Program-made: the position numbers and the translations under genes | Part shown: positions 9,779 to 37,042 of the stretch, in pieces | How positions within the stretch are numbered: position 1 is the stretch's first letter | How the letters are laid out: each line of letters opens with the position of its first letter | Source: an uncultured Gammaproteobacteria bacterium | Lineage (GTDB): Bacteria > Pseudomonadota > Gammaproteobacteria > Pseudomonadales > Pseudohongiellaceae | Reading direction: 5' to 3' | NCBI GenBank assembly: GCA_903837345.1 | Contig: CAILUG010000053.1 | Span: forward strand, 1-37,042 | DNA length: 37,042 nt | Notes under the pieces: model-generated | Told to the model about the DNA's origin: nothing | Databases searched by the model: none | Seen by the model: the letters and a program-made list of their open reading frames with translations, nothing else

Positions 9779-9890
9779 GCGGCGGGGCAGGAATAGGTTT
9801 CTGCGACCGTCGGAGGCCATGGATGGCCGGAGGCGAGCCTACAGGGACGTACTCGTGGCGTGTCGCAGGGGCCTATTCCTGCTCCGCCGC
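9779..9890 (+). repeat. Palindromic repeat element, copy 1 (29-bp arms around a conserved 54-bp core)
   Basis: Left arm 9779-9807 and right arm 9862-9890 are complementary over 29 positions. As plus-strand RNA, all 29 pair: 25 Watson-Crick pairs and four G-U pairs. The core 9808-9861 contains the small palindrome GGCCATGGATGGCC and the string CTACAGGGACGTACTCG. The same core occurs at 36798-36848 (reversed) and 36961-37013, but with different arms. It fills most of the 177-bp gap between qor and aguA. It could end or stabilise the qor transcript or be a non-autonomous mobile repeat. I cannot name a described family that fits. Confidence 0.85.
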
Positions 9891-9913
9891 CCGCACCAAT
9901 CCAGGGATTATCA

Positions 9914-10939
9914 ATGACGAAACATTTCTCAATGCTGCCGGAATGGGCGCAGCAACAGGCTGTGATGTTGGCGTGGCCGCATGAAAGCACTGACTGGCAA
10001 CCGTGGCTGGCGGCGATTCAGCGTGACTATGTGGAGCTGGCTGTCGCGATTGCCAGCGAAGTGACGCCGTTGATCCTGTGTCAGGATGAGGCTCATAAAA
10101 AGCAGATTACAGAGCAACTGGCTGGCCGTTGCCAGCACGCGCCGCGTTTGGTGATTGCGCCTTACAACGATACCTGGTGCCGCGACTATGGTCCGATCAC
10201 GCTGGCTGCCGATGGCAAAGTGCAGATGCTGGATTTCCAGTTCAAGGGCTGGGGCGACAAATACGATGCCACTCTCGACAACAGGATCAATCAGCAAATC
10301 TGGGGCGAATGGCGTGCGCCGCTCAGAACCATTCATTATGAACTTGAAGGTGGCAGCATCGAAACGGATGGGCAAGGCACGCTGCTCACCACCGCGCACT
10401 GTCTGCTCGACAGCAATCGCAACAAGGATTTCACCAAAGCCCAGGTGGAAAAATTTGTGCTGGAACAGCTCGGGCTTGATCGCATCCTGTGGATCACTGA
10501 AGGCGCGCTGCTGGGCGATGATACTGATAGCCACATCGACAACCTGGTGCGGTTCTGCTCGCCCGACACCATCGCCTATGCCACCTGCTCACGCGGTAAT
10601 GATGTGCACTATGAGCCGATGCAGAAGATGAAGGCGCAGGTGGAAGCATTGCGGCAGCCCAGCGGCGAGCCCTACCAGTTGCAACCTATGGAAATCCCGG
10701 CGCCGCAGTTTGATGAGAATGGCAAACGCCTGCCGGCCAGCTATGTGAATTTCCTGATCGTCAACCACAGTGTGATCGTGCCGGTGTTTGGTTGTGACGA
10801 AGATGCAGCGGCGCTGGCCGGTTTGCAGGCTTGTTTCCCGGGCAAAAAGCTGGTGCCGGTGCCGGGGGGCAACCTGATCAAACAATATGGCGGCCCGCAC
10901 TGTGCTACGATGCAATTACCTGTGGGAACCCTGCTATGA
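9914..10939 (+). CDS. aguA: Agmatine deiminase
   Basis: Converts agmatine to N-carbamoylputrescine and ammonia, in the arginine-decarboxylase route to putrescine. The protein has 341 residues. Guanidino-group enzyme motifs are present: NDTWCRDYGP (85-94, Asp91), ELEGGS (143-148), the catalytic His207 in SHIDN, and the nucleophile Cys330 in GGPHC near the C-terminus. I start at the ATG at 9914. An in-frame GTG at 9860 would add 18 Pro-rich residues that are simply translated repeat element. The stop codon overlaps the aguB start by 4 bp (ATGA), as expected for the next enzyme of the pathway. Confidence 0.95.
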   Translation: MTKHFSMLPEWAQQQAVMLAWPHESTDWQPWLAAIQRDYVELAVAIASEVTPLILCQDEAHKKQITEQLAGRCQHAPRLVIAPYNDTWCRDYGPITLAADGKVQMLDFQFKGWGDKYDATLDNRINQQIWGEWRAPLRTIHYELEGGSIETDGQGTLLTTAHCLLDSNRNKDFTKAQVEKFVLEQLGLDRILWITEGALLGDDTDSHIDNLVRFCSPDTIAYATCSRGNDVHYEPMQKMKAQVEALRQPSGEPYQLQPMEIPAPQFDENGKRLPASYVNFLIVNHSVIVPVFGCDEDAAALAGLQACFPGKKLVPVPGGNLIKQYGGPHCATMQLPVGTLL

Positions 10940-11847
10940 CCACCAAACATCTTCGCGCTGCCGTCATTCAGCAACAAGCCTGGCCCGACAAAAACCAAAG
11001 TCTGGCCGAGAGCGAGCGTTTGCTGAAAGCGGTGCACAAGTCGCATCAGCCGGAGCTGGTGCTGCTGCAGGAACTGCACACCACCCATTATTTCTGCCAG
11101 AGTGAAGACACGGCGGTGTTTGATCTGGCTGAGCCTTTGGATGGGCCGAGTGCGGCTCGCCTTTCTGCTTTGGCCAAACAATACAGCTGTGTGTTGGTGG
11201 GCGGCATTTTTGAGAAACGCGCGGCCGGTGTGTTTCACAACACGGCGCTGGTGTTTGACAAAGACGGCTCACTCGCCGGCACCTATCGCAAGATGCATAT
11301 CCCGGATGATCCGGCCTTCTACGAAAAATTCTATTTCACACCCGGTGATGCCGTGCGCCTCGATGGCAAGAGCGGCTTCACGCCGATCAAGACCAGTGTT
11401 GGCAAACTCGGCGTGCTGATCTGCTGGGACCAGTGGTATCCGGAAGCGGCGCGGCTGATGGCGCTGGCCGGTGCCGATGTGTTGCTGTATCCCACCGCCA
11501 TTGGCTGGGACCCGCAGGAACAGGACGACGAAAACCAGCGGCAACAAGGCGCCTGGCAGACCATCCAGCGTGCACATGCGGTGGCCAATCACCTGCCGGT
11601 ATTGGTGGCCAACCGTGTGGGCCATGAAGCGGCGCCAGGCGCGGGCAGTGGCATCAACTTCTGGGGCGGCAGCATGGTCGTGGGCCACCAGGGCGAGATA
11701 CTGGCGGAAGCCGATTCCAGCACCAGCGGTTCACTGGTGGTTGATCTCGACATGAGCCGCACCGAAAGCCTGCGCCGCATGTGGCCGTATTTCCGCGATC
11801 GTCGTATTGATGCCTATGGCGGGCTCACCGCCAGATTTCTCAAATAA
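10936..11847 (+). CDS. aguB: N-carbamoylputrescine amidase
   Basis: Nitrilase-superfamily amidase that releases putrescine, CO2 and ammonia from N-carbamoylputrescine, completing the agmatine route. The 303 residues carry the Glu-Lys-Cys triad: Glu46 (LLQELH), Lys119 (YRKMHIP) and Cys163 (LICWDQW). Other family strings are FYFTPGD and the C-terminal RRMWPYFRDRRIDAYGGL. The start at 10936 overlaps the aguA stop codon; a longer in-frame form starting inside aguA is not needed. Spacing to the Rieske oxygenase gene downstream is 25 bp, so all may share one transcript. Confidence 0.95.
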   Translation: MTTKHLRAAVIQQQAWPDKNQSLAESERLLKAVHKSHQPELVLLQELHTTHYFCQSEDTAVFDLAEPLDGPSAARLSALAKQYSCVLVGGIFEKRAAGVFHNTALVFDKDGSLAGTYRKMHIPDDPAFYEKFYFTPGDAVRLDGKSGFTPIKTSVGKLGVLICWDQWYPEAARLMALAGADVLLYPTAIGWDPQEQDDENQRQQGAWQTIQRAHAVANHLPVLVANRVGHEAAPGAGSGINFWGGSMVVGHQGEILAEADSSTSGSLVVDLDMSRTESLRRMWPYFRDRRIDAYGGLTARFLK

Positions 11848-11872
11848 CCGCAGGCAACGGGGAGAGAAGACG

Positions 11873-12940
11873 ATGGATCTGCTGAAAGGTTCCCACATCC
11901 CCCAGTTGCGCCACTGCTGGTATGTGGCGGCATGGAGCCATGAAGTGCCGGTGGGCAAACTGCACGGTATCACCATCATCGGCCAGCCTGTGCTGATCTA
12001 CCGCAAGCAGGACGGCACGCTCACCGCCATGGCCGACCAATGCTGCCATCGCCATGCCCAGCTCTCACGTGGCCGTCTCGAAGGCGACGACGTACGCTGC
12101 ATGTATCACGGCCTCAAATACAACAGCAGCGGCCACTGCATCGAAATTCCTGGCCAGGACGACATCCCCGAGCGCTTCTGCGTGCGCACCTATGCCGTGC
12201 AGGAAGCCGACAGCTGGATCTGGGTGTGGATGGGCGAACATGACAAGGCCGACCACGCGCTGATTCCCTCAGCCACCGGCCCTGATGATCCGCGTTACCA
12301 CATGCGCAGCGGCCATATCGATTACCAGGCCAACTACTTGCTGGTGAACGACAACCTCACCGATTTCTCGCACATCGCGTTCGTGCACGAAAACAGTTTT
12401 GCACGCGGCACCAAAGACACTGCAGTACTGCAGCCGCGCGTGCAATTGCTTGAGCGCGGCATCCGCATCACCCGCTGGAATCGCAACCAGCCTAGCCGCC
12501 ATAACGATCCGCTGCATCCGGTTGCCGATGTATTCATGACCTATGATTTTTTGGTGCCAGGTGTATTGCTGATGTTCACCGGCTCCTATCCGGCCGGCAC
12601 CGCTGAAGCAGTGCAGCTGGGTTCGCCCGGCGAACGCGAGCCGTTCGCTGCCACTTTCACCTCACAAGCGGTAACACCACTTACTGCCAACACCAGCCGC
12701 TATTTTTTCTGCTGGGGTCCGCGCAGCGAAGAACACAAGGCCAACCCGCAGATCATCGAGAACCTGTGGCAGCTCGCCCATATTGCGTTTGAAGAGGACC
12801 GCCAGATCATTGAAGCGCAGCAGCGCAATATCAACCTCAACACCAACGCGCCGGTGCTGTCCATCACGCATGATCGTGGGCCGACCATGATGCGCAAGGT
12901 GATTGAAAGGTTGCATGCGGCGGAGACGGGTCAGCAATGA
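11873..12940 (+). CDS. Rieske non-haem iron oxygenase, VanA-like (aromatic demethylase/hydroxylase subunit)
   Basis: A 355-residue oxygenase subunit of the vanillate O-demethylase/phthalate dioxygenase type. The Rieske [2Fe-2S] centre is Cys57-x-His59 with Cys76-x2-His79 (CCHRH ... CMYHGLKY). The mononuclear iron site is Asp164-x2-His167-x4-His172 (NLTDFSHIAFVH). A GGGGAGAG ribosome-binding site precedes the ATG at 11873; a longer form overlapping aguB is rejected. The substrate is likely an aromatic methyl ether or similar ring compound, but it is not readable from sequence. No ferredoxin reductase (VanB) gene is in the window, so electrons must come from elsewhere. An SDR follows after 33 bp and may act on the product. 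Confidence 0.9.
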   Translation: MDLLKGSHIPQLRHCWYVAAWSHEVPVGKLHGITIIGQPVLIYRKQDGTLTAMADQCCHRHAQLSRGRLEGDDVRCMYHGLKYNSSGHCIEIPGQDDIPERFCVRTYAVQEADSWIWVWMGEHDKADHALIPSATGPDDPRYHMRSGHIDYQANYLLVNDNLTDFSHIAFVHENSFARGTKDTAVLQPRVQLLERGIRITRWNRNQPSRHNDPLHPVADVFMTYDFLVPGVLLMFTGSYPAGTAEAVQLGSPGEREPFAATFTSQAVTPLTANTSRYFFCWGPRSEEHKANPQIIENLWQLAHIAFEEDRQIIEAQQRNINLNTNAPVLSITHDRGPTMMRKVIERLHAAETGQQ

Positions 12941-12973
12941 AATCCGGGATTCAACCCTGGAAATGAGATAAAA

Positions 12974-13801
12974 ATGTCCAATGTCATTGTTGTCATCGGA
13001 GCAGGTTCGATCGGTCAGGCGATTGCACGGCGCGTCAGTGTCGGCAAGCATGTGCTGCTGGCTGATTTGCGCCGCCACAATGCTGAATCTGCAGCGAACG
13101 TCCTGAGTGACGCCGGTTTCGAGGTGAGCACTACAATCGTCGACGTATCTGCACGGGCTTCAGTGCAAGCGCTTGTTGGGAAGGCCGCATCAATTGGTGC
13201 CATTACCGGCGTCATCCATGCGGCCGGTGTGTCTCCCACGCAGGCAACGCCGGCAGTAATCCTGAAAGTCGATCTCTATGGTACTGCGCTGGTGCTTGAG
13301 GAATTCGGCAATGTCATTGCGGACGGTGGAGCGGGAGTAGTGGTCGCTTCGCAGTCAGGGCATCGCCTGCCAGCGTTGACTGTTGAGCAAAACAAGGCGC
13401 TGGCAACTACACCGGTTGATGAGTTGCTTGCACTGCCAATGTTGCAGCCGGAGCATGTGAAGGATTCGCTCCACGCCTACCAGCTTTCCAAGCGTGGCAA
13501 CTCACTGCGGGTTATGGCTGAAGCGGTGCGGTGGGGCAAACGTGGCGCGCGCGTCAATACCATCAGCCCCGGCATCATCTTCACGCCGCTGGCCAGGGAC
13601 GAGCTGAACGGCCCGCGCGGTGACGGCTATCGACGCATGATCAGGTTGTCTGCGGCCGGGCGCGGCGGTACGCCGGATGAGGTAGGAGCTGTTGGCGCGC
13701 TTTTGATGGGGCCGGATGGTAATTTCATCACCGGCAGCGATTTCCTCATGGATGGCGGCGTCACCGCTGCCTACTGGTTCGGCGAACTCGCGCCACAGTG
13801 A
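12974..13801 (+). CDS. SDR family NAD(P)-dependent oxidoreductase
   Basis: A 275-residue classical short-chain dehydrogenase. The cofactor motif is GAGSIGQA (9-16), a slightly short version of TGxxxGxG. The catalytic residues are Ser127 (ASQSGH), Tyr169 and Lys173 (YQLSK). The NAG-like motif is HAAG (82-85), and the C-terminal GSDFLMDGG is usual for the family. There is a loop of about 30 residues between Ser and Tyr (LTVEQNKALATTPVDELLALP) longer than in many SDRs, also seen in substrate-binding lids. It sits between the Rieske oxygenase and a serine hydrolase, suggesting it oxidises or reduces an oxygenase product. That link is inferred from position only. Confidence 0.88.
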   Translation: MSNVIVVIGAGSIGQAIARRVSVGKHVLLADLRRHNAESAANVLSDAGFEVSTTIVDVSARASVQALVGKAASIGAITGVIHAAGVSPTQATPAVILKVDLYGTALVLEEFGNVIADGGAGVVVASQSGHRLPALTVEQNKALATTPVDELLALPMLQPEHVKDSLHAYQLSKRGNSLRVMAEAVRWGKRGARVNTISPGIIFTPLARDELNGPRGDGYRRMIRLSAAGRGGTPDEVGAVGALLMGPDGNFITGSDFLMDGGVTAAYWFGELAPQ

Positions 13802-13836
13802 TGGCAAGCATTGTGAATTTGTTCAGGAGGATGTTC

Positions 13837-15072
13837 ATGAATTCTTCACGTCTGCAGGTAACCATCCTGTTGGCGGCAATGCTGGGTTCATTGCCGATCG
13901 CTGCCCAACAGTCTTTGCCGGCACCGCTGGTGGGCGGCCCGCCCACCCAGGTGCCGGTTGCCGTGCAGATTCTGCGCTGGCATATGCTCGACAATGAAGT
14001 CAGTTCCCTGATGTTCCGCAGCATGGACACTCTCTTCACCACCCGCACAGTTGCCCGCAGTGGACCGGTGTGGGAACTGCCGCATCGGGATCATGCGCTG
14101 GATTTCAGCTATAAATGGCAAGACAAGAGCTTGCCAGCCGGGCAGTTGCTGGAACGCACCTACACCAATGCGCTACTGGTGATGAAGGATGGGCGCATTG
14201 TCAGCGAGACGTATCGCAACAACACTTCCCCCCAATCCCGCTTTATCGGCTGGTCGATGACCAAGTCGATCACTTCAGTGCTGGTCGGTTGTGCGCTGGC
14301 TGACGGCACCATTGATTCGCTCGATACTCCGATCTCCCGCTACCTGCCCGAACTCAAGGGCGGCGGCTATGACGGTGTCACCATCCGCCAGGTGATGCAA
14401 ATGCGTTCTGGCGTGGATTACGAGGAGCGCTATGATTTTGAACATCCCGGCACCGCCGCCAGCAACCATATCGCCGCGCTGGTGCGTAATACTGCGCGCT
14501 TTGTGGATGTGGCGCGCACGTTGAAACGTATCCATGCTCCGGGCGAATTCTTCCAGTACAAAACCATTGATACCGCGGTGCTGGGCTGGCTGATCGAGCG
14601 CGTGAGCAAAGGCAGTGTGGCGGCTTACACCGAGCGTTGCCTCTGGGAACCTTTGGGCGCGGAAGCAGACGGGTTCTACATCATGGATGGGGCGCCGGGG
14701 GTCGGCCGCGAATTCAGCGGCGCGGGTTTCAACGCCACACTGCGTGACTTTGCCCGTTTCGGGCAAATGGTGCTCAACGGTGGCCTCGCCGATGGTCGGC
14801 GCATTGTGTCAGAGGACTGGATACGGCAGTCCACGCAGCCGAGTGGCGGTGAAGCACAAAGTCGCGGTGGTTATGGGCTGCAATGGTGGATGGTCGGGAA
14901 CAGCGGGGCGTTCTCCGCCATCGGCCTGCAGGGGCAGTATATTTATATCGATCCCGCCACCAAAACCGTAGTGGTGAAGCTGAGCTACTTCCCGCCTGGT
15001 GACAACACGGCACTTGCTGCAGAGACCCAGGCTTTCATGGCTGCTGCCTCAGCCTGGAAACCGGATTTATAG
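13837..15072 (+). CDS. Class C beta-lactamase-like serine hydrolase, exported
   Basis: A 411-residue serine hydrolase of the beta-lactamase/penicillin-binding-protein fold (family VIII esterase-like). A signal peptide covers residues 1 to about 23 (ending IAAQ). The nucleophile motif is Ser140-Met-Thr-Lys143 (GWSMTKS), and Tyr241 (FFQYKTID) fits the YxN-like position, with Thr in place of Asn. It may hydrolyse an ester, lactam or amide in the periplasm; true beta-lactamase activity is not implied. The start at 13837 is chosen because AGGAGG lies 7 nt upstream and it gives a clean signal peptide. An earlier ATG at 13801 overlaps the SDR stop codon. The 3' end overlaps the convergent TPM gene by 6 bp. 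Confidence 0.85.
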   Translation: MNSSRLQVTILLAAMLGSLPIAAQQSLPAPLVGGPPTQVPVAVQILRWHMLDNEVSSLMFRSMDTLFTTRTVARSGPVWELPHRDHALDFSYKWQDKSLPAGQLLERTYTNALLVMKDGRIVSETYRNNTSPQSRFIGWSMTKSITSVLVGCALADGTIDSLDTPISRYLPELKGGGYDGVTIRQVMQMRSGVDYEERYDFEHPGTAASNHIAALVRNTARFVDVARTLKRIHAPGEFFQYKTIDTAVLGWLIERVSKGSVAAYTERCLWEPLGAEADGFYIMDGAPGVGREFSGAGFNATLRDFARFGQMVLNGGLADGRRIVSEDWIRQSTQPSGGEAQSRGGYGLQWWMVGNSGAFSAIGLQGQYIYIDPATKTVVVKLSYFPPGDNTALAAETQAFMAAASAWKPDL

Positions 15073-15582
15073 AATAACAACCTGATTGGACAGTTCTTCC
15101 GGGTTGTGGGCACTGTGTTGCGGAAAATGCTGATGCAGCAATGCGGCAATCCGTTTTAACCCGTCAATACTGCCCTCCGAAAATCGACCCGACTGAAACG
15201 CCTTGGTCATGCTGGCACAGATGGTTTCCCATTCCTGTTGCGGCACCCGCGCGCTGATGCCGCGATCCGCCACGATTTCCAGTTGCTGTTCTGCAAACAA
15301 CACGTAGACCAGAATGCCGGTATTGTGTTCGGTGTCCCAGATACGCAAATCGGAAAACAGGTTCACGGCGCGGGTGCGTGCATCAATGTTGCGCCACAGA
15401 TGTGGCCAGTCCAGCGCACCTTCCACAACAAAACGGATTTCAGCGCGATTGCCTTTTTCGGAAGCAGCAATAGCTGTTGCAATCGACTCACATACAGATT
15501 TTGAAAAAGCACGGCGCACTTGCCAGGGCATTACCAGCGCATGTGTGAGTATTCGTTTTAATTTCGCTAACAGTTTCATCAC
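15067..15582 (-). CDS. TPM domain protein
   Basis: A 171-residue protein with one TPM (TLP18.3/Psb32/MOLO-1) domain. Characteristic parts are the start of the domain at AIAASEKGNRAEIRFVVEG, VNLFSDLRIWDTEHNTGILVYVLFAEQQLEIVADRGI in the centre (about 94-130), and the closing helices around WETICASMTKAFQSGRFSEGSIDGLKRI. No signal peptide or convincing membrane segment is visible, so unlike its neighbour it looks cytoplasmic or peripheral. Its ATG overlaps the stop codon of the upstream TPM gene by 4 bp. The trio LemA-TPM-TPM is a recurrent arrangement in proteobacteria whose role is not settled. Confidence 0.85.
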   Translation of the reverse strand: MMKLLAKLKRILTHALVMPWQVRRAFSKSVCESIATAIAASEKGNRAEIRFVVEGALDWPHLWRNIDARTRAVNLFSDLRIWDTEHNTGILVYVLFAEQQLEIVADRGISARVPQQEWETICASMTKAFQSGRFSEGSIDGLKRIAALLHQHFPQHSAHNPEELSNQVVIL

Positions 15583-16469
15583 CAGCGTCCCGAGGCTCCG
15601 CCGCCACCAAACCCGCCACCGCCGCCACTCCAGCCGCCACCGCCACCACTACTGCCACCGCCTGAGCGGCCTTGCATTGAGGAAGCGAGCAGAACAAACC
15701 AGATTTCATTGGGGACCAGGGCCAGCATCAACGCCATGAAAGCTATCCCCACGGCCATCATCAAGGACCAGCCAATCACCAGCCACACAAACAACACAAT
15801 GAGGGGTGCTCCCGCTACCGGCGCCACAATGTGCCCGGTCACGCCCCGCATTATTTTTATGAAAATCATGCCCAGCACAATGATGAAGAAGAAGGAGATA
15901 GCCTGCTGGTTTTCATCGCCTGCCGGACGGGCACTGTCTTGCTGGCCGGGCGGGATTGTGCCGGCTATGCGTTGATAGACACTGTCCACCACTGCATTGA
16001 TGCCGCCATAAAATTCGCCTTGTCTGAAAAATGGAGCCATCACCGTGTCCAGCAAGCGGCTGGCCACTACATCCGGAATGGTGCCTTCCAGTCCATAGCC
16101 CACCTGCATTTGTGAACGGCGGTCGTCTTTGGCAATGAACAACAGCAAACCATTGTCCACTTTGGCAGCACCCAGCTTCCATTTCTCAACTACACGCATG
16201 GAGTAGGTAAAGGCATCTTCCGGCGCCGATGAGGCAATGATCAATACCTGCATTTGTGCGCCGTATTTGTCGTGCAGCGACCTCAGCTTTGCGGAAAGCT
16301 GTGCCTGTTGATTGGCGTCGAGCGTGCCCGTCATATCGATCACGGGACTGGTCAGTGGCGGAATCTCCTGCAGCGAACTGCTGGCGGCATTGGCAGCGGG
16401 CATCGTCGCCACCAGCTGCAACAGGCAGAGCAGGAAATAGCAGTACCAGCGTCGCAGTGTTGGCATCAC
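15579..16469 (-). CDS. YgcG-like TPM domain membrane protein with Gly-rich tail
   Basis: A 296-residue membrane protein: signal peptide (1 to about 28, ending ANAAS), an extracytoplasmic TPM domain (about 38-165, with DNGLLLFIAKDDRRSQMQVGYGLEG), two or three hydrophobic segments between about 190 and 265, and a strongly Gly/Ser-rich end finishing GGASGRW. This order is standard for YgcG-type proteins. The Gly-rich tail is low complexity, so similarity based on it means little. It lies 12 bp after lemA and overlaps the next TPM gene by 4 bp, so the three genes form one operon read leftwards from 17102. Confidence 0.88.
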   Translation of the reverse strand: MMPTLRRWYCYFLLCLLQLVATMPAANAASSSLQEIPPLTSPVIDMTGTLDANQQAQLSAKLRSLHDKYGAQMQVLIIASSAPEDAFTYSMRVVEKWKLGAAKVDNGLLLFIAKDDRRSQMQVGYGLEGTIPDVVASRLLDTVMAPFFRQGEFYGGINAVVDSVYQRIAGTIPPGQQDSARPAGDENQQAISFFFIIVLGMIFIKIMRGVTGHIVAPVAGAPLIVLFVWLVIGWSLMMAVGIAFMALMLALVPNEIWFVLLASSMQGRSGGGSSGGGGGWSGGGGGFGGGGASGRW

Positions 16470-16481
16470 AGTATGGATAAA

Positions 16482-17102
16482 CTACTGCTGTGGTGCTGGT
16501 GCTGGTGCTGGTGCAGGTTTGGAAAAATCCACTTTGGGCGGAGCACTGATGGCTTTTTCATTCTCCACCGCAAAATTGGGTTTGGTTTTCATATCAAGAT
16601 ATTTGGCCGTCAGATTGCTCGGGAACGAGCGTATCGTGGTGTTGTAGGTTTGCACGGCTTCGATATAACGCTTGCGTGCCACCGTGATGCGGTTTTCGGT
16701 GCCTTCCAGTTGCGCCGACAGATCCTGGAAATTGCGGTCGGCTTTCAATTGCGGATAATTTTCCGACACCACCAGCAAGCGCGACAACGCGCTGGTCATG
16801 CTGGCCTGCACTTGCTGGAACTCTGCAAAGGCTTTGGGATCATTCAACAGTTCCGGTGTGGCCTTGATGCCGCCCACCGAGGCGCGGGCATTGGTGACTG
16901 CTTCCAGCACTTCGGCTTCATGCTCGGCATAGCCTTTTACCGTTGCCACCAGATTCGGCACCAGATCGGCCCGGCGCTGGTATTGGTTCAGCACTTCCGA
17001 CCACGCAGCAGAGATCGCCTCATCCTGGCTTTGCAAATCGTTGTATCCGCAGCTGCTTGCCGCCAGCGTCATGACCAAAGTCAAAAGTAAACGTAGTTTC
17101 AT
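16482..17102 (-). CDS. lemA: LemA family lipoprotein
   Basis: A 206-residue LemA-family protein. The signal peptide ends in a lipobox-like LAASSCGYN, suggesting a lipid-anchored Cys near residue 19. The long helical body has the usual LemA strings: QRRADLVPNLVATVKGYAEHE, LSRLLVVSENYPQLKADRNF and ENRITVARKRYIEAVQTYN. It ends in an Ala-Pro tail (APAPAPAPQQ) coded by a short in-frame hexamer repeat (ggtgct on the plus strand, about 16493-16514). An AGGAG ribosome-binding site lies 8 nt before the ATG at 17102; a 12-residue upstream extension is unlikely. First gene of the LemA-TPM-TPM operon. Confidence 0.9.
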   Translation of the reverse strand: MKLRLLLTLVMTLAASSCGYNDLQSQDEAISAAWSEVLNQYQRRADLVPNLVATVKGYAEHEAEVLEAVTNARASVGGIKATPELLNDPKAFAEFQQVQASMTSALSRLLVVSENYPQLKADRNFQDLSAQLEGTENRITVARKRYIEAVQTYNTTIRSFPSNLTAKYLDMKTKPNFAVENEKAISAPPKVDFSKPAPAPAPAPQQ

Positions 17103-17129
17103 GCAAGTTCTCCTGTGAACAAGTCCCAC

Positions 17130-17159
17130 TTGATACATCCTTGCGGTAAAGTGTATATG
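17130..17159 (+). promoter_or_regulatory. Possible sigma70 promoter for tpm
   Basis: TTGATA (17130-17135) and TATATG (17154-17159) are separated by 18 bp, in the 108-bp divergent gap between lemA and tpm. The -35 matches 5 of 6 positions and the -10 matches 4 of 6. It would give a leader of about 45 nt before the tpm ATG at 17211. This is a sequence match only. Confidence 0.35.
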
Positions 17160-17210
17160 AATCCGGTCGCAAACACTTTGATCAATTCAGCAACGAGCGG
17201 GAAATCAGCT

Positions 17211-17855
17211 ATGGAAACAGGTTTTTGGCATGACAGATGGGCGCGCCGTGAAATTGCCTGGCATGAAAGTGCGGCGCACCCGTTGCTGGTCGAGTATTTT
17301 TCCAGGTTGAAGCTGGCCACAGGCAGTCGCGTATTCGTGCCGCTGTGCGGCAAGACCATTGATATAGCCTGGCTGCTGGCCAACGGTTACCGGGTGGCGG
17401 GCGCTGAATTGAGCGAGATCGCCATCACCGAGCTGTTCCAGGAGCTGGGCGTGCAGCCGGTCATCACCAGGCTGGGCAAACTTGCTCATTACGGTGCCCA
17501 TGACATCGACATCTTCGTTGGCGACATCTTCGATCTGACAGCGGCAACATTGGGGCAGGTCGATGCAATCTATGATCGTGCGGCTTTGGTGGCGCTGCCC
17601 AGGACCATGCGTGAGCAATATTCGCAACACTTGCGCAACCTTACCCGTACCGCGCCGCAACTGTTGATCACGTTTGAATACGATCAGCAGCTGATGGATG
17701 GCCCGCCGTTTGCCATTGTCAAAGCCGAAGTGAAACAGCATTATGCCGCGGCCTATCACTTGACGGCAGAGGTACACAGGCAGTTGCCAGGTGGCTTGAA
17801 AGGGAAAGTGCCGGCAACTGAGACTGTCTGGTTGTTGCAACCGGCAAAAAAATAA
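17211..17855 (+). CDS. tpm: Thiopurine S-methyltransferase
   Basis: A 214-residue SAM-dependent methyltransferase of the bacterial TPMT family, which methylates thiopurines and, in bacteria, tellurite or selenium oxyanions. It opens METGFWHDRWARREIAWHES, with the family's W-x2-R/W and WHE features. The SAM site is VFVPLCGKTIDIAWLLANGYRVAGAELS (about 42-69), followed by GDIFDL and DAIYDRAALVALP. Start at 17211: the upstream in-frame region has no family content and overlaps the lemA promoter side. It is followed after 13 bp by a TauE/SafE permease gene, so the two are probably cotranscribed. Linkage to an anion exporter fits detoxification of an oxyanion, which is inference. Confidence 0.93.
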   Translation: METGFWHDRWARREIAWHESAAHPLLVEYFSRLKLATGSRVFVPLCGKTIDIAWLLANGYRVAGAELSEIAITELFQELGVQPVITRLGKLAHYGAHDIDIFVGDIFDLTAATLGQVDAIYDRAALVALPRTMREQYSQHLRNLTRTAPQLLITFEYDQQLMDGPPFAIVKAEVKQHYAAAYHLTAEVHRQLPGGLKGKVPATETVWLLQPAKK

Positions 17856-17868
17856 ACAGGTTCATTAC

Positions 17869-18681: not shown

Positions 18682-18699
18682 TGAGCCTGGCAGCGCCGT

Positions 18700-19407: not shown

Positions 19408-19462
19408 GGGCAGGGTCCTCGGAAATCCTGCAATAATAAACCAGTCATGGTCGCGTTTTTCC

Positions 19463-29591: not shown

Positions 29592-30850
29592 GCCCCGGCT
29601 CGGTGATTCTCGACATGAGTCGTATGAACCGTATTCTGGAAGTGAATACCGACCTTGCTTATTGCATGCTCGAACCCGGAGTTGGCTTTTACGATCTGCA
29701 CGAGCACCTTGCCCAAAACCGGATCCCGCTCTGGTTGTCGATCCCGGGCAACGGCTGGGGCAGCGTGATGGGCAATGCGCTCGAACGCGGCTTCAGCCGC
29801 ACACCCTATGGCGAACACACCAACAGCATTTGCGGCATGGAAGTGGTGCTGCCCAATGGCGATCTGGTGCGTACCAGCACTGGTGCCATGGCCAACAGCA
29901 AAAGCTGGCCTCTGTTCAAAGCCGGTTTTGGCCCGGGTTGGGACCAGATGTTCTGCCAGTCCAATTTCGGCATCGTCACCAAGATCGGTTTCTGGCTGAT
30001 GCCGGAGCCGCCCGCGACCCTGAACATGAGCCTGGGTTTGCCCAATGTGGATGACATCGGCTGGCTGGTGGATGTGCTCACCCCGCTGCGGATCAGTGGC
30101 GTCATTCCGCATAATGTCGGCATTGCCAATTATCTGGGTTCTGCCACCACCGCCAGTCAGCGCAATGAATGGTTCGAGGGTGAGGCTGCGCTGCCTGATG
30201 AAGCAATCGCCCGCATCATGCAGCGCTATAACGTTGGGTGGTGGAATTTCACGCTCACTTTGTACGGGCACCCAGAGGTGAATGAAATCCATCGCAAAAT
30301 CATCGAGGATGCTTTCAGGCCGCATACCAGCCAGAACTTCCGCATCTCCCGCTGGAACAAGGGTGAACCCGGCGGCGGACCGGTACCCAGTGTATTCGCC
30401 TTGCGCGTCGTCAACTGGCATGGTGGCAGAGGCGCGCATCTCGGCTTCTCGCCTATCCTGCCCGGCAAAGGCGCTGCAGTGGTGGAGCAAGTACACCGCA
30501 CACGCGCACGTTACCGTGAATCCGGTTGCGATTATTCGTCGACTATTTATGTGTGCGGCCGCCATGCCATAAACGTCAACTTGATGTTGTACGACAAGGA
30601 CAACGCCTCGCTGGTGGAGCGCACCAACCGGCTGTTTGCAGTACTGGTTGCCGATGCTGCCGCTGCCGGCTATGGCGAATACCGTACTCATCTGGAGTGG
30701 ATGGACGAGGTGGCAGCATCATTTGATTTCAACGGACAGGCTTTGCGCCGCCTCAATCAGCAGGTGAAAGATACACTCGACCCCAACGGCATCCTGGCGC
30801 CGGGCAAGAGCGGCATCTGGCCACAGCGCTTTCGCAAGGATCAGCCATGA
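29543..30850 (+). pseudogene. pchF: 4-cresol dehydrogenase/vanillyl-alcohol-oxidase-type flavoprotein, 5'-truncated
   Basis: Open frame of 435 codons matching the flavoprotein subunit of p-cresol methylhydroxylase or eugenol hydroxylase, whose relatives have about 520 residues. Homology starts at about codon 18 (GSVILDMSRMNRILEVN) and continues with MLEPGVGFYDLHEHL, SIPGNGWGSVMGNALERGFSRTPYGEH, MEVVLPNGDLVRT and the C-terminal DPNGILAPGKSGIW. Roughly the first 100 residues, which hold the FAD pyrophosphate-binding loop, are absent, replaced by the LapG-like gene. In the VNWHGG block, the position that I recall as the FAD-linking Tyr (YNW) is Val. Activity is doubtful. The cytochrome subunit gene overlaps it by 4 bp and is intact. 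Confidence 0.75.
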
Positions 30851-31203
30851 GAACCACCATCACTTCACTGTTGCTGGGTTTTTGCTTCTGCCATCCGCTT
30901 TATGGAGCGGAAACAGCCGGCAGCTCCGGCAACAATGCTGTTGAGAATGGCGCCAGGTTGTTTGAACAGCGCTGCAGTCTTTGTCATCGCGGAACCGGTC
31001 CGGGCGTATTCATGCTGGAACGGCGTTTGGGAGCAGACCAATCCGTTCTCGAAAACCGCAGCAACCTCACCAGGGACTATATCCGCACCGTCGTGCGCTG
31101 GGGGGTGGGCAGCATGCCCCGCTTCAGTCGTGGTGAAATTTCTGATCCCGAACTGGAAGCGATAATGAAGTATTTGCTGAATCCTGCAATCAAGACACCT
31201 TAG
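30847..31203 (+). CDS. pchC: Cytochrome c subunit of the 4-cresol dehydrogenase-type complex
   Basis: A 118-residue periplasmic c-type cytochrome. Signal peptide 1-20 (ending LYGAE). Haem motif Cys43-Ser-Leu-Cys46-His47 and distal Met90 in GSMPRFSR. In p-cresol methylhydroxylase this small cytochrome accepts electrons from the flavoprotein and passes them to the respiratory chain. The ATG overlaps the flavoprotein stop codon by 4 bp, a normal arrangement for the two subunits. With its partner truncated, it may be a leftover. A strong bidirectional terminator follows. Confidence 0.85.
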   Translation: MRTTITSLLLGFCFCHPLYGAETAGSSGNNAVENGARLFEQRCSLCHRGTGPGVFMLERRLGADQSVLENRSNLTRDYIRTVVRWGVGSMPRFSRGEISDPELEAIMKYLLNPAIKTP

Positions 31204-31251
31204 TGTGTCAAAGACCTTCAGCCAGGCCAGCGGGGGGTTTGGCCGGAGCCC

Positions 31252-31286
31252 AAAAAAAACCGGCGGCTTTTCGGGCCGCCGGTTTT
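31252..31286. terminator. Bidirectional intrinsic terminator
   Basis: AAAACCGGCGGC (31256-31267) and GCCGCCGGTTTT (31275-31286) form a perfect 12-bp stem with a 7-nt loop. A-rich sequence on one side and T on the other allow termination of both the cytochrome gene (plus) and the TonB receptor gene (minus). Confidence 0.9.
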
Positions 31287-31314
31287 CTGCGCAAATGAAT
31301 GCACTATTGCCTTG

Positions 31315-33702
31315 TCAGAACTTCCGTTTGACTGTCAGTGCGAATTCGCGCGGACGTCCTGGCTGGCCATCGGTGACGCCTGTCGTCGTGTACTGGTCGA
31401 AACGCGTCAGGAAGTAGTACTTGTTGTCCAGGTTGGTGATCTCTGCCGATGCTTCCCAATCCTTCATCGCACTCCGCCAGGTCAGACGCGCATTGGCCAG
31501 CGCGTAGGAACCGATGCGGTTGGTTTCCGCATTGGAACCGCTGGCATACATCTCGCCCTGATAGCTCGCATCCAGCCTTGGTGTGATGGAGGCGCCTGAG
31601 GCCAGATCAAACTCGTACTGGATGCCGATGCTGCCTTTCAGTTTCGGCACATAGGCAGGACGCATGCCGTATTGCGGGCCGGTGGGACGGCCCGGGCCGC
31701 CAGCTGCCGGATCAAGGTAGGTGTACTTGAAGTTGAGCGTGCTGGCGGAAGCATCGATGGTCCAGCCGTCGCCTGGATGCGCAATCACTTCCAGCTCGAC
31801 GCCTTTCATGTCAGCGTTGCCGGCATTGGCAACCACCGCACACGGCAGGCCTGCGCCGTATTGCGGACAGCTCAACAAGGTCAGCTGCAGGTCGTTGTAC
31901 TTGCTCAGGAACACCGAGCCGTTCACGCGCAGACGGCGATCAAACAGTTCCGACTTGAAGCCTGCTTCCTAGGATTTCAGTTTTTCAGGATTGAACGGCA
32001 CTGCCTGCGCAGGCGAGAACGGACGCGGCGATACTCCGCCGCCCTTGAAGCCGGTGGCGTATTGCACGTAGGTCATCAGGTCCTTGTTCCAGTCATATTG
32101 CAGGTTGACCCGGTAGTCGTATTTGCTGCCGTCATAATTGCGCGGATTCCCGGCCTCCAGCACACCGAGAGTCGGATGCAAGGCGCCAGAGTAGGTGCGA
32201 CGCACGAAGGTGTAATCCTTGTGCTCGTCGGTGTTGCGAATGCCGAGGTTGGTCGTCAAGGCATCGGTGAAGTGGTACGACACATGGGCGAAGAGTGCCT
32301 TGGTGTCTGCGTTCACCGGGTCATTGCCCTGGAACTGGGTCAGGCCGGTGGCCGAATAGCGCAGATCCTGCACGGTGGCGTAGATCGACTTCTGGTCCAG
32401 GTAGAAGGCGCCTACCGTGTAATCGAGGCGGTTGTTTTCCAGTGCGGTGCCGCTGAGGCGCAGCTCTTCGCTGATCGAATGGAATGCCAGGTTGCCGTAG
32501 CCCAGTGAGAGGGACAGCGGCGACAGGTCGTTGTCATTGGTGAAGTAGCTGTCGTAGGTGCGGTACCCGGTGATCGACTTCAGCGTCAGCGTGGGTGACA
32601 GCTTCCAGGTGGCATCGAGCGAACCACCCGATCCTTTGAAATTCACGCCGAGCACCGGGCGCGTTTCCAGCGCGGGCGTGGACGTTAGCGGTGCCACCAG
32701 GCGCGTGAAGGTAGCGGGCGGATTGTAGAAGGAGGCATAGTTGTAATAGGAACCATAGGGCGGAACGAAGTCGGAGGGCGCCAAATGGGTCACGCCCGGC
32801 ACGGGCTGTGCGTTCGGGTTGACGGTGGTGCTGCCCTGGACTATCACAGAGCCGGCCGGGGTACGAACGTCACTGGTGTAATCGACGGAGGCAAGGATTT
32901 CGAGATTCGATGTCGCGTCCCAGGCCAGTTCGGCACGAAGCGCCGAGTAATCAACATCGCCGAGCGTCCCCACCTTGCAGTCGTTTCCAACCGGCTTGAG
33001 GATAGGGACTCCACTGTCCGGATGCGAGCAGCCGTAATCGATCCTGTCGATGTAACCGTCCTGGCGTTTGCTGACGCCGGTGATGCGCATGAACAGATTG
33101 TCGCTAATGGCAAAGTCACCGCTTGCACGCAGATCGATGCGATCGCGCGAGCCATAGGTGCCGGAAATGGAGCCGCCCTGGCCGGTTGGTTTGCGCGAGT
33201 ACAATTTGACGGCGCCGCCGATCGAGTTCTTGCCGGCCAGCGTGCCTTGCGGTCCGCGCAGGATTTCCACGCGGTCGAGGTCGAGCAGGTCGAGGGTGGA
33301 GCCGGTCAGCGTCGCATAGTAAACATCGTCAACATAGATGCCCACGCCGGGCTCAAGGGCCGGGTTGAAGTCATACTGGCCGACGCCACGAATCGAGGCC
33401 GCCATCGATGGACCATAGGCAGCGCCTTGTGGTTTCAGTGTTACGTTGGGCGCCTGATTGGCTATTTCAGCCAGATTGGTCTGGCTGCGTGATTCAAGCA
33501 TTTCGCCCGAGATGGCCGTGATGGACAACGGCGTATCCTGAACGTTCTGCTCCCTGAACTGTGCGGTGACAACGATTTCTTCCAGGCTTGACGATTTGTC
33601 AGCTGGTGCGGCGGCCCATGCCGCGCCAAGTCCAAGCGAATTGGCGATGACGAAAGTCATGCCTGCTTGAACGGCAACAGTGATTGCTTTCTTCTTGAAC
33701 AT
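31315..33702 (-). pseudogene. TonB-dependent receptor interrupted by an in-frame amber codon
   Basis: One reading frame of 795 codons encodes a full outer-membrane receptor, broken by TAG at 31969-31971 (codon 578). Signal peptide 1-31, TonB box around EEIVVTAQ, plug domain with DTPLSITAISGEML, VGIYVDDVYY and RVEILRGPQGTLAGKNSIGG. The barrel ends in the C-terminal Phe of ALTVKRKF. The stop lies in EKLKS-stop-EAGFKSELFDRRL, where relatives have SYE, so it is probably Tyr TAC or TAT changed to TAG. The frame stays open for 217 codons after it. The first 577 codons would lack the last barrel strands and not fold properly. Read-through or a sequencing error are alternatives. Confidence 0.85.
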
Positions 33703-33814
33703 TGAATTCCCCGATATTTGACTGCGGTGATGGTGTTTCCGGTACTTGAGTCAGCCTTCAAAAATTCTCCCTGACTACCGTCCCCGGACCTATGCGGCTT
33801 CCTGCGCGGCGCGG

Positions 33815-33844
33815 ATTTTAACATTCAAAATATCGTTATGGAAA
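33815..33844 (-). promoter_or_regulatory. Possible sigma70 promoter for the TonB receptor
   Basis: On the minus strand, TTTCCA (33839-33844) and TAAAAT (33815-33820) are spaced by 18 bp. They lie in the 184-bp gap before the receptor gene, giving a leader of about 105 nt. The -10 matches 5 of 6 positions and the -35 matches 4 of 6. Confidence 0.4.
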
Positions 33845-33886
33845 TTTGCCCCCCGGGCAGGAAAGGGATTCAACAATTAATCTTTT

Positions 33887-34801
33887 CTACTTGTCCCAAA
33901 CGGACCTGTGCATCAGTACCACTTCTGCAAAGTTCAGCGCCGGCTTGCCGGTGATCATCTCGATGTGGCGGCTGCAGATCGAGAAATAGCCCTGTTTTAT
34001 CGCCATTTCGTAAGTGATCATCTCATCGCTGGCCCAGGCGTTGGTGGTGTCGTTCATCATGCCTTCCTGGTAATCGCGGCTGATGCCCATCGCATCGAAG
34101 ATCGCCTGTTTGTCGGCATGGCTGAGGTTCTGGTACACGATGGGTTTGCGACTCGCTGTGCTGCAGTGCTGCATCATGCCGGCAAGTGTGAACAACTCGG
34201 GGCCGGTGATTTCATAGATGGCGTTGACATGATGACTGCTGTTGGCCAGTACTGCTGCAGCCGTACGCGCACAATCATCTTTTGCCACCGGCGCCACCAT
34301 GCCGTCTCCGGTGCTGAAGCCGATGGTGCCCATGGCGATGGCGGCCGGCATCAACAGTTGCGGGATTACATCGGCATACCAGGAATTGCGCAGGATGGTG
34401 AAATCAAGTCCGCTCTTCTGCAGCACTTGTTCAGTGGCATAGTGCTCCCGCCCTGAAATGGACGGTGTCTGCGGCTGAATGCCGCAACTCGAGGTATAAA
34501 CCACGTGTCGCACACCAGCCGCTTTGGCGGCATTGATGGCTGTGGTGTGCTGCTGCAGGCGTTTGCCGATGCTGAGTGTACTGATCAGCATCAGCACATC
34601 GCCACCTTGCAGCGCGCGCTCAAGGCCGCTGGCATCGTTGAAGTCGGCCTTGCGTACATCGGCGCCTTTGGATATGGCGTCGGCCAGACTGGCGGGATTG
34701 CGGCTGAGCAAAATCAATTGCGAGGCCGGCACCCGTTGCAAAAGCTCCGCGGTAATTTTGCGGCCAAGATCGCCGGAGGCGCCGCTGATAACGATTTTCA
34801 T
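33887..34801 (-). CDS. NmrA-like NAD(P)-binding reductase
   Basis: A 304-residue atypical short-chain dehydrogenase of the NmrA/QorB group. The nucleotide motif is GASGDLGRK (7-15). It then has the family's LLSRNPASL, KADFNDASGLERALQGGDVLMLIST and GVRHVVYTSS (about 99-108), followed by LDFTILRNSWYADV and the C-terminal YEITGPELFTLAGM. It may reduce quinones or sense the NAD(P) state; which one is not clear. It follows the PQQ dehydrogenase gene by 19 bp on the same strand and is probably in its transcript. A tail of about 40 residues with Cys and Met near the C-terminus is not typical and unexplained. Confidence 0.82.
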   Translation of the reverse strand: MKIVISGASGDLGRKITAELLQRVPASQLILLSRNPASLADAISKGADVRKADFNDASGLERALQGGDVLMLISTLSIGKRLQQHTTAINAAKAAGVRHVVYTSSCGIQPQTPSISGREHYATEQVLQKSGLDFTILRNSWYADVIPQLLMPAAIAMGTIGFSTGDGMVAPVAKDDCARTAAAVLANSSHHVNAIYEITGPELFTLAGMMQHCSTASRKPIVYQNLSHADKQAIFDAMGISRDYQEGMMNDTTNAWASDEMITYEMAIKQGYFSICSRHIEMITGKPALNFAEVVLMHRSVWDK

Positions 34802-34820
34802 GTGCAGATTCCTGTTTTTG

Positions 34821-36689
34821 TCATGGCGCCGGCTTGAAGGCCAGCAGCAGATTGCCGGGCACGCCCATCAAGCCATAGCCTGACTGGACAAACAGCATGC
34901 CGTTGGCTGCGACGACAGTCGCGTTGTCGATGGCACCGCCGTGACCTTTGACACCATTGACAGTATCAAACGAACGCGCGGTATCAAACGTGAAAAGTGG
35001 CTCGCCACTTTTGGTATCGAACACCTTGAGGTAGCCGTCGTTGGCGCCTTGCACCACCGCGCCATCCACCAGCAGCGTGGCGGCCGACATGCCGTAATTG
35101 CTGTTGCAGGATTTGATTTCCTGCTGGCGGGTGCCGCTGCAATCGGGTTTGTGCAGGTACGACCACAGGATGTTGCCGTTGTTGATGTCGAGTGCAAACA
35201 GTCCGGGCGTGACGCCATCGGCGGTGGGACCGGTGGACATGTTGTCGGCTGCAAACAAACGCTGTTGCCCGTCGTAGGCCATGCCCCAGTGGATGCCGCC
35301 CATTGCGCCGCCAGCGCCGACCTTGGTGCTCCACACCAGTTTGCCGGTGTCAGGATTCAGCGCCCACACCATGCCGTTTTTCTGGCCGCCCAGCACCAGT
35401 TCGGAACCATCCGGTTTTTTGGCGAGCATGATGCCAGCCCCGAAATCCCAGTCTTTGTTGACGCTGGTGGGTGGCGGGCAGTTGGGGCCGTCCGGCTGGT
35501 TCATGCAGCCGGTGAGGAAGATATCGTTGGGCGTGGTCTGGTATTTCCATGCCAGTTTGCCGTCTTCCATGTGTATCGCCAGGATCGCGTCGCTGCTGTC
35601 TGTAGCCGGTGCCGATGTGTTTTCACCAGTGCCGACATAGATAAGGTGGCGCTTCTCATCAATGGCTGCGGCTGTCCAGATCGGTGCACCCGACGGTCCA
35701 TAGTGTTGGGTGCCCACTTTGCTGACATCGGTTTTCTTCGCATCTTCCATCGTGTGATACACCCACAGCCGCTCGCCAGTCGACACTTTGAGCGCCACCA
35801 CGGCGCCGTGACTGGTGCAGCATTCGTAGTCAGGCACTGCGCCCATGTTGAGCTCGCCGGACGAGATGGGCACAAAGATCCTGTCTTCAAACAGCACCGG
35901 CATTGCGGTGACATTCGACACGCTGGTGACTTTTACCGAAGTGGTCCACAGCACTTGTGCATTGGAGGCATCCATCATCAGCACGTGGGTGGCGGCATCG
36001 GCAAACAGTAATACGTTACGGCCATTCGGCAATTTGTGATAAGCGAGCGCCGTACGCAGAGGCACGTCGTGCTGGTAAACCCACTTCACGCACGGTGCAG
36101 CACCGCCGATGTCGAGAGCAAACAACTGGCCGGAATCAACAATGGAAAGATACATGGTGTTACCCACCACCACCGGCTGTGCACGCATGTTGGCGGTTTG
36201 CGGAAATGCCATCACCCACGCCAGTTGCAGCTTGCCCATCTGGGCTGTGGAAAGGCCGGCCTGTTTGGCAGTGAGGCGACGATTGTTGTGGGAGTCAAAA
36301 CCCCACTGGCCGATGGTGGGAGTGCCGGTGTCCACGGCCAAATGATCGGCCTTGCAGGAATGGGATGCGATCCAGCTGTTGTCGACATCCGCGGTGGCAG
36401 AGAGATACGACACCACGCTGTCGATGTCCTTCGCACTCAGCGGCGCGGCTTGTGCTTTCATCTTGCCGTTGGTGAGTGCATAGGACACCGAGCGTGGCCC
36501 CATGCGCTTGAGGGTTTCAATCGGCGGCGCCTTGGTTTCAGCCGGCTTGGCGTGGCAGGTGGCACATACGGTGTCGTAAATCTTCTGGCCGTCCTTGTTG
36601 CCATCGGCGCTGCGCACCGGTTGCTGGCCGAACGCTAGCGGTACAGCAAGAGCAACTATGAATGTGAATCTGGCGACTTGTTTGAACAT
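34821..36689 (-). CDS. Cytochrome c / PQQ dehydrogenase, polyvinyl-alcohol-dehydrogenase-like
   Basis: A 622-residue periplasmic quinohaemoprotein. Signal peptide 1-21 (ending AFGQ). N-terminal cytochrome c domain with Cys42-Ala-Thr-Cys45-His46 and a likely Met77 ligand (GKMKAQ). From about residue 120 there is a PQQ-type beta-propeller, with repeated strands such as GQLFALDI, GAVVALKVSTGERLWVY, GMVWALNPDTGKLVWST and GLFALDINNGNILWSY, and a vicinal Cys290-Cys291 in DYECCTSHG. Haem first, propeller second is the order of polyvinyl-alcohol dehydrogenase, unlike alcohol dehydrogenases with C-terminal haem. The true substrate may be another secondary alcohol. The start at 36689 has GAGGGG upstream. 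A palindromic repeat lies about 80 bp before it. Confidence 0.85.
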   Translation of the reverse strand: MFKQVARFTFIVALAVPLAFGQQPVRSADGNKDGQKIYDTVCATCHAKPAETKAPPIETLKRMGPRSVSYALTNGKMKAQAAPLSAKDIDSVVSYLSATADVDNSWIASHSCKADHLAVDTGTPTIGQWGFDSHNNRRLTAKQAGLSTAQMGKLQLAWVMAFPQTANMRAQPVVVGNTMYLSIVDSGQLFALDIGGAAPCVKWVYQHDVPLRTALAYHKLPNGRNVLLFADAATHVLMMDASNAQVLWTTSVKVTSVSNVTAMPVLFEDRIFVPISSGELNMGAVPDYECCTSHGAVVALKVSTGERLWVYHTMEDAKKTDVSKVGTQHYGPSGAPIWTAAAIDEKRHLIYVGTGENTSAPATDSSDAILAIHMEDGKLAWKYQTTPNDIFLTGCMNQPDGPNCPPPTSVNKDWDFGAGIMLAKKPDGSELVLGGQKNGMVWALNPDTGKLVWSTKVGAGGAMGGIHWGMAYDGQQRLFAADNMSTGPTADGVTPGLFALDINNGNILWSYLHKPDCSGTRQQEIKSCNSNYGMSAATLLVDGAVVQGANDGYLKVFDTKSGEPLFTFDTARSFDTVNGVKGHGGAIDNATVVAANGMLFVQSGYGLMGVPGNLLLAFKPAP

Positions 36690-36768
36690 GGCGATCCCCT
36701 CTTTTTTGTAGCCTGATTTAGCCAGTGAAGGAAGCTGGAGGCAAGAGCGCTGCAACAGTCCGGTGTGC

Positions 36769-36877
36769 AGCCTCTGGCCGGCACAGTGTTCCGCGACCGC
36801 CGCGAGTACGTCCCTGTAGGCTTAGTCTTCGGCATCCATGCCTCAGATGTCGCTGCACACTGTGCCGGCCAGAGGCT
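36769..36877 (-). repeat. Palindromic repeat element, copy 2 (reversed orientation)
   Basis: Arms 36769-36797 and 36849-36877 are complementary at 27 of 29 positions, with partial pairing continuing a few bases outwards. The core 36798-36848, read on the minus strand, matches copies 1 and 3 (GAGGCATGGATGCC, then CTACAGGGACGTACTCG). The arms share no evident sequence with copies 1 and 3. It lies upstream of the PQQ dehydrogenase gene and faces copy 3. Confidence 0.85.
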
Positions 36878-36931
36878 TCAGACATTCGAGCGTGTTCACA
36901 ACAGCAGGAGGAATTACGCTCTGAACTCGAG

Positions 36932-37042
36932 AGCCTTGGGCGGAGAGACGCTTCTGAAACTGTCTGAGGCCAGGGACGGCCGAAGACAAGCTACAGGGAT
37001 GTACTCGTGGCGTGTTTCAGAAGCGTCTCTCCGCCCAAGGCT
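36932..37042 (+). repeat. Palindromic repeat element, copy 3 (reaches window edge)
   Basis: Arms 36932-36960 and 37014-37042 are perfectly complementary over 29 bp, and the right arm reaches the last base of the window, so pairing may extend further. The core 36961-37013 has GAGGCCAGGGACGGCC and CTACAGGGATGTACTCG. It is separated from copy 2 by 54 bp holding no gene; GAGCGT (36888-36893) and ACGCTC (36916-36921) are an inverted pair in this spacer. Confidence 0.85.

Follow-up and report, generated by a model that had tools for sequence, protein, structure and literature searches.

A dispersed two-hairpin repeat of Gammaproteobacteria as a putative CsrA-binding RNA

Contig CAILUG010000053.1 of an uncultured gammaproteobacterium of the family Pseudohongiellaceae (assembly GCA_903837345.1), analysed over its whole stretch of 37,042 nucleotides (hereafter, the window), carries three copies of a repeat that consists of two short hairpins with GGA-containing loops, mounted on a long stem formed by the outer arms of the element. 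The core string of the repeat matches three times in the window, against 0.03 matches expected, and the organization described for these places in the original prediction, a shared core between arms of about 29 nucleotides that pair with each other, was recovered in all three. The repeat is present in dozens of copies in its source genome and is patchily spread among Gammaproteobacteria, its fold is maintained by covariation, and one of its two strands is preferentially kept foldable. We consider it likely, with a probability of about 0.6, that this dispersed repeat encodes a CsrA-binding RNA, putatively a decoy or a clamp acting in cis; this is the best single explanation because it covers the structure, the strand and the identity of the loops together.

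Fold and preferred strand

Complementary arms were found in 53 of the 55 copies tested in the source genome (12 of the 67 copies, with a contig end within about 100 bases, were left out) and, in other genomes, in 99 of the 121 copies whose flanks are complete, whereas none of 528 controls that combined the left arm of one copy with the right arm of an unrelated copy paired. Genome-wide, the flanks are thus self-complementary as originally proposed. Two copies of the source genome with poorly pairing arms (G000:C1:38219 and G000:C56:37455) are possibly recombinants between copies.

The arms are not, as had been suggested, specific to each copy, nor do all copies share one arm sequence: simple string rules assign the 67 copies to type A (28), type B (26), type C (4) and a remainder of 9 ('other') that takes in copies cut by contig ends. 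The arms in the window look unrelated because its three copies represent three of these types (other, C and A). The proposal does stand between arm types and between species, where the arms are unrelated in sequence yet complementary. Type A copies differ from one another in the central part of the arm and still pair almost perfectly.

An alignment of 46 diverse sequences from other genomes, taken from 59 non-redundant ones among the 71 copies (of 176) with paired arms and GGA at offset -18, supports a fold with a handle of 28 pairs, a first hairpin of 9 pairs and a bulged second hairpin of 6 pairs. Paired cells amount to 90.8% of this alignment, compared with 57.2% after shuffling and 34.9-45.4% after sliding, although the conservation of GGA and part of the pairing follow by construction, because the sequences were chosen for paired arms and GGA. 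Both sides have changed in 38 of the 43 pairs, and the covariation score is 0.813, against 0.184 for shuffled and at most 0.175 for slid alignments. Unaided, RNAalifold recovers the handle minus its outermost pair, the first hairpin and the upper three pairs of the second. The first-hairpin stem varies freely between species, with 43 different inner stems among the copies with a GGA loop, and what had been described as a conserved core is actually a pair of hairpins.

In the arms, read on the strand that carries GGA in the loops (the GGA strand), G-U outnumbers A-C by 126 to 28 in other genomes and by 50 to 3 in the source genome; the count is confined to the 99 and 53 copies whose arms pair (with 121 and 85 other mismatches, respectively) and rests on an alignment scoring that treats all mismatches alike. 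The GGA strand is therefore the one kept foldable, because an A-C on this strand is a G-U on the opposite one and it is G-U that is in excess. Such strand-specific folding suits RNA and single-stranded DNA equally.

Together with the paired fraction and the two-sided changes among the 46 selected sequences, this strand preference provides good support for selection on structure, one of the mechanisms that had been put forward for the origin of the arms. Another of them, the copying of one arm onto the other by template switching, could have made the arms and kept them perfect through quasipalindrome correction, with no selection on the structure, and the type A arms, which differ between copies and still pair almost perfectly, fit such a process. 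It is very improbable as the sole cause, given the excess of G-U over A-C, the covariation of the hairpin stems as well, and the fact that the mechanism prefers neither a strand nor a loop; template switching may nevertheless act as a helper that keeps the arms perfect.

Loops, putative CsrA binding and related RNAs

The first hairpin lies outside the scan pattern and hence offers a fair test of loop conservation. Its GGA is in place in 112 of the 121 complete copies in other genomes and in all 55 copies of the source genome; among the 112 loops, the first position is A in 99, and the second is open (G in 49, U in 41, A in 18 and C in 4). When the best hairpin was scored, GGA was found in 106 of the 121 loops, compared with 9.5% in shuffles. 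The second hairpin was fixed by the scan pattern in loci L072-L190, and the test of it comes from loci fetched with a covariance model, R1, which was used for the repeat searches beyond the core pattern and was itself trained on hairpin 2. All 31 full-length model matches in these loci carry ANGGA in both hairpins (one, in L220, also appeared in the pattern scan; the antisense row of L219 was excluded). In 8 of the 31, the stem of hairpin 2 is not UAC/GUA, and all 8 are compensated (UCC/GGA in 3, CCC/GGG in 3, CAC/GUG in 1 and UAU/AUA in 1). An alternative fold of hairpin 2 obtained by single-sequence folding was set aside, as the UAC/GUA pairs change in step across relatives. The distance from GGA to GGA is 19-22 nucleotides in 167 of the 176 copies, the remaining 9 being without GGA at the searched place.

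The CsrA consensus derived by systematic evolution of ligands by exponential enrichment is RUACARGGAUGU, in which AC pairs with GU and the loop has six bases, and a CsrA dimer bridges two sites 10-63 nucleotides apart, best at more than 18 (PMC7652899). Hairpin 2 is close to this consensus, hairpin 1 agrees with ANGGA in a loop of six bases, and the distance between the two falls within the bridging range.

In the mechanism that we propose, the variable arms would serve as a long paired handle, the sequence of which can drift while the pairing holds. This handle would display two A-N-G-G-A-N hairpins about 20 nucleotides apart, and a single CsrA/RsmA dimer could clamp both loops. Each transcribed copy would then bind CsrA and draw it off its mRNA targets, like sponges of the CsrB/RsmZ type; in an alternative role, a copy would put a CsrA clamp into the mRNA that carries it. 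The copies have presumably spread both singly and in head-to-head pairs about 300 bp long.

In the window, no Rfam family reached its cut-off, the CsrB/CsrC/RsmX/Y/Z-type families and Ysr224 included. The earlier statement that no described family could be named holds to this extent, but two relatives are catalogued: TwoAYGGAY, which has the same design, and Ysr224, which lies on the opposite strand of enterobacterial copies. TwoAYGGAY (RF01731) shares with the repeat an outer stem and, in the same order, two hairpins that have ANGGAY loops. The proposal that it binds CsrA was reportedly made by Gardner and Eldai. TwoAYGGAY, which comes from the human gut, Gammaproteobacteria and Clostridiales (PMC2864571), has been proposed as a CsrA-binding RNA (PMC4333381) and belongs to the same Rfam clan (CL00106) as CsrB of Escherichia coli. 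Its model matched the GGA strand of element 2 with 32.6 bits (E 0.0017; cut-off 43); searched genome-wide, it gave one weak match (23.2 bits, E 0.535) and did not return element 2, and there was no match at E up to 10 in 8 further loci. The repeat is not filed under RF01731 because its score stays below the curated one. The available text of PMC4333381 and PMC2864571 does not describe TwoAYGGAY as a many-copy repeat, whereas the repeat analysed here has dozens of copies.

The Ysr224 family (RF02770, Yersinia small RNA (sRNA) 224) exceeded its 70-bit cut-off in 2 of 16 loci, namely, in the Samsonia and Pectobacterium copies (84.7 and 73.3 bits; Table 1), and gave 8 matches of 19.5-37.3 bits, below the cut-off, in 7 of 8 further loci. 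In all 10 matches, the Ysr224 strand is opposite to the GGA strand, and its consensus read backwards holds UACAUGGAUGUA and CCAGGGAUGG. Ysr224 is listed among the 20 sRNAs that are most prevalent in bacteria and is called temperature-responsive (PMC9029176), and in Y. ruckeri it occurs in several copies with differing expression profiles (PMC12112432); in the available text of both papers, it is not linked to CsrA.

Sponges of the CsrB/CsrC/RsmX/Y/Z type are encoded by few genes and carry many GGA each. The repeat is similar to them in that GGA is located in hairpin loops, the sites of the CsrA dimer, but differs in occupying dozens of loci, each with a long stem that bears two GGA loops, whereas CsrB has many GGA in one RNA (PMC7652899). 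By analogy, the best reading is that the repeat would work like a TwoAYGGAY- or CsrB-type RNA. The layout of integron attC sites, with conserved ends and a variable middle, is the reverse of that of the repeat.

Several other candidates were rejected. MicroRNA families matched by the long stem were taken as stem artefacts; a full-text literature search for core strings gave only papers with titles on mammalian subjects, taken as chance matches; and the CsrA-related sRNAs of Alcanivorax and Alteromonas are, as described in the available text, different RNAs. Literature searches on such repeats, alone or with CsrA, miniature inverted-repeat transposable elements or bacterial interspersed mosaic elements (BIMEs), gave no description of the repeat family among the matches listed, although a 2026 preprint on Csr/Rsm binding across Gammaproteobacteria (PMC12889724) could overlap. 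In the text of the RepRanger paper, Marinobacter, Microbulbifer, Halomonas and CsrA were not found, and Stenotrophomonas occurs in a reference only.

Copy number, head-to-head pairs and distribution

In the 3.26-Mb source genome, the core string has 68 matches at up to 2 mismatches, and the reversed pattern has none. All but one of these are true repeats; the exception, at C17:7023, is a chance match inside a predicted gene with no element around it. In 44 stretches of this genome, R1 gave 73 matches, that is, the 67 pattern copies and 6 head-to-head partners that the pattern had missed, and one further copy (G000:C14:8775) brings the number added by the model to seven. Many contigs of the assembly begin or end at or inside an element (the window at 37042, and C3, C5, C12, C22, C26, C28, C35, C46, C59 and C62), and the true copy number and extent of pairing are therefore likely underestimated.

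Two pattern matches lie within 260 bp of each other at 15 places, and all 15 are arranged minus-then-plus, that is, head-to-head, each combining one type A copy with one copy of another type. Ten other places in the source genome have a similar pair unit (78-87% identity over at least 256 bases), and the spacer holds related 5' flanks from both halves. No clear target duplication was found by eye. Minus-then-plus pairs were also seen in Stenotrophomonas maltophilia E301 (L138, 1927-2246) and in a gammaproteobacterial metagenome-assembled genome (L140, 6769-6986). With pairs recurring in these genomes, head-to-head pairing is old or recurrent.

The pattern scan of named genomes yielded at least 119 stretches, and the 80 titles listed all refer to Gammaproteobacteria or to genera and families that we take to belong to this class; the carriers among the matches listed include Stenotrophomonas, Xanthomonas, Marinobacter, Halomonas, Microbulbifer, Pectobacterium, Shewanella, Methylococcaceae and Chromatiales. 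R1 matches were detected in 48 of 229 genomes of the class and in 18 of 299 genomes of the phylum, the source genome being part of both samples; these counts and prevalences are lower bounds, as at most 16 (class) or 12 (phylum) candidates were scored per genome. All 18 carriers in the phylum sample, which does not state what share of the 299 lies outside the class, are within Gammaproteobacteria, and so is every carrier for which an affiliation is stated. In the genus, several genomes of which are 73-90% complete, the pattern was counted 68, 25, 22, 21, 20, 10, 3, 3, 2, 1 and 0 times; elsewhere in the family, 22 of 25 genomes show 0-2 matches and the others 3, 4 and 7, against 0-5 for the reversed-pattern control. 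Different subtypes have been amplified in different species; thus, most of the listed matches in G005 have ACATGGA in hairpin 2. Among plasmids and phages, blastn found no match of element 1 at E 1e-5.

Several genomes of the genus share the arrangement of genes that surrounds element 1 (there was no match in G006 and G008, and the site comparison leaves out G005 and G003). In G009, the corresponding site holds an element with related arms in inverted orientation, the second hairpin of which has decayed and lost GGA (L256, G009:C199, about 4211-4311); this may have arisen by a flip between the inverted arms or by an independent insertion. The corresponding gaps in G007 (89 bp) and G004 (96 bp) are without the element, none was seen by eye in those of G010 (136 bp) and G001 (47 bp), and the 499-bp gap in G002 contains a hairpin remnant. 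Insertion of the core into pre-existing palindromes, also put forward in the original prediction, is not supported, given the recurrence of arm types at unrelated places in the genome and the empty gaps of the two sister species G007 and G004, in which no such palindrome was seen by eye.

Presence, absence and inversion at one site, the many copies, the head-to-head pairs with their recurring unit, and an orientation indifferent to genes would all suit a mobile DNA hairpin, such as an element similar to repetitive extragenic palindromes (REPs) or BIMEs, in which the GGA strand folds as single-stranded DNA, a transposase or another DNA enzyme recognizes the loops, and the likeness to CsrA sites is coincidental. 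REPs and BIMEs associated with TnpA-REP are likewise multicopy and unevenly distributed between species, the GTAG and CGTC REPs favour head-to-head dimers (PMC3733652), and the strand-specific folding fits single-stranded DNA as well as RNA. We nevertheless regard this explanation as rather unlikely. The Y1 transposase (PF01797) has no match in the source genome; the stem of the repeat, about 29 bp and branched into two hairpins, is far from the 5-13 bp of REP stems (PMC3733652); there is no fixed GTAG, CGTC or CTAC tag, the base 5' of UACAGG being variable; and ANGGA in both loops is not predicted by it.

Of the 68 pattern matches in the source genome, 45 could be classified by the genes on both sides: 18 are located between convergent genes, 5 between divergent genes, and 22 between co-directional genes, 10 in sense and 12 in antisense. 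The convergent share in this genome would fit a hairpin at mRNA ends that stabilizes or terminates transcripts, with the GGA loops incidental. In other genomes, however, there is little enrichment: 16 of 69 copies are convergent, 9 divergent and the rest co-directional (20 sense, 24 antisense), compared with 38 convergent, 50 divergent and 116 co-directional among 204 gaps, 120-800 bp long, from these loci. The gene calls behind these numbers are home-made and rough, 52 of the 121 copies in other genomes were unclassified, and the copies of one pair were counted apart. By eye, there is no T-run beyond the arms on either side, the two orientations are about equal, and such a role needs neither loop conservation nor two hairpins, so that we deem it improbable.

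To be weighed against CsrA binding are, to begin with, the circumstances that the likeness to CsrA sites was spotted only after the sequence had been viewed and that a promoter and a transcript of the GGA strand are presumed. There is no sense-strand bias beside genes, which weighs against a simple cis role; a head-to-head pair always has one sense copy, but a single copy does not. The TwoAYGGAY model gave no match up to E 10 on element 3, although this belongs to the same stretch as element 2, and the model of Ysr224, a relative reported to be an expressed sRNA, represents the other strand and not the one with GGA. The patchy counts within the genus are unlike those of a required regulator. 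On the side of CsrA binding, csrA itself is present once in the source genome and was detected in 44 of the 48 carrier genomes, the source included (36 of the 37 with a completeness of 90% or more and a contamination of 5% or less). Among non-carriers, it was detected in 150 of 181, which is not a significant difference (p 0.18). Among the four carriers without csrA, three are 67-88% complete, and the fourth, G251 (98% complete, 10 model matches), stayed below the csrA cut-off also when E was relaxed, its sole match being weak and inside a 573-codon frame.

More speculatively, and with considerable doubt, the repeat could be a mobile element of Gammaproteobacteria that lives off CsrA: each copy would offer two high-affinity sites, the copy number (from 0 to about 70 within one genus) would act as an inherited dial on free CsrA, and the pairs of two arm types would provide one sense copy on either transcribed strand. 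CsrA is a global regulator, the activity of which is partly set by RNA decoys. If CsrA binding holds, such decoys could proliferate in the manner of selfish DNA, with large differences between sister species, rapid change of the Csr/Rsm regulon would become possible, and a large set of unannotated intergenic repeats would gain a function. TwoAYGGAY and Ysr224 would then be joined under one design, which raises the question of whether Ysr224 has been modelled on the right strand.

Elements in the window

Table 1. Coordinates of the repeat elements and their parts in the window, and of the Ysr224 matches over the cut-off in other loci
Feature	Coordinates	Strand	Remarks
Element 1	9779-9890	+	arm type 'other'; model R1 86.2 bits
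Element 1, 5' arm	9779-9807	+	
Element 1, hairpin-1 loop AUGGAU	9819-9824	+	closed by GGCC/GGCC
Element 1, hairpin 2 UAC[AGGGAC]GUA	9840-9851	+	similar to CsrA sites; pairing backed by relatives
Element 1, 3' arm	9862-9890	+	pairs with 9779-9807
Element 2	36769-36877	-	arm type C; left half of head-to-head pair; model R1 81.7 bits
Element 2, hairpin 2 UAC[AGGGAC]GUA	36807-36818	-	
Element 2, hairpin-1 loop AUGGAU	36834-36839	-	
Spacer between elements 2 and 3	36878-36931	.	5' flanks GAACACGC.. and GAATTACGC.., similar to flanks of other pairs
Element 3	36932-37042	+	arm type A; right half of pair; ends at contig end; model R1 76.0 bits, cut by contig end
Element 3, hairpin-1 loop AGGGAC	36972-36977	+	
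Element 3, hairpin 2 UAC[AGGGAU]GUA	36992-37003	+	
Ysr224 matches over cut-off	L134 4184-4290; L143 638-745	opposite to GGA strand	

Element 1 is flanked by a gene for a zinc-type dehydrogenase and, on the other side, by a PAD_porph (deiminase-like) gene. It is located between a -10-like stretch, which is shared with G007 and G009 and was judged to be a promoter by eye, and the start of the deiminase-like gene.

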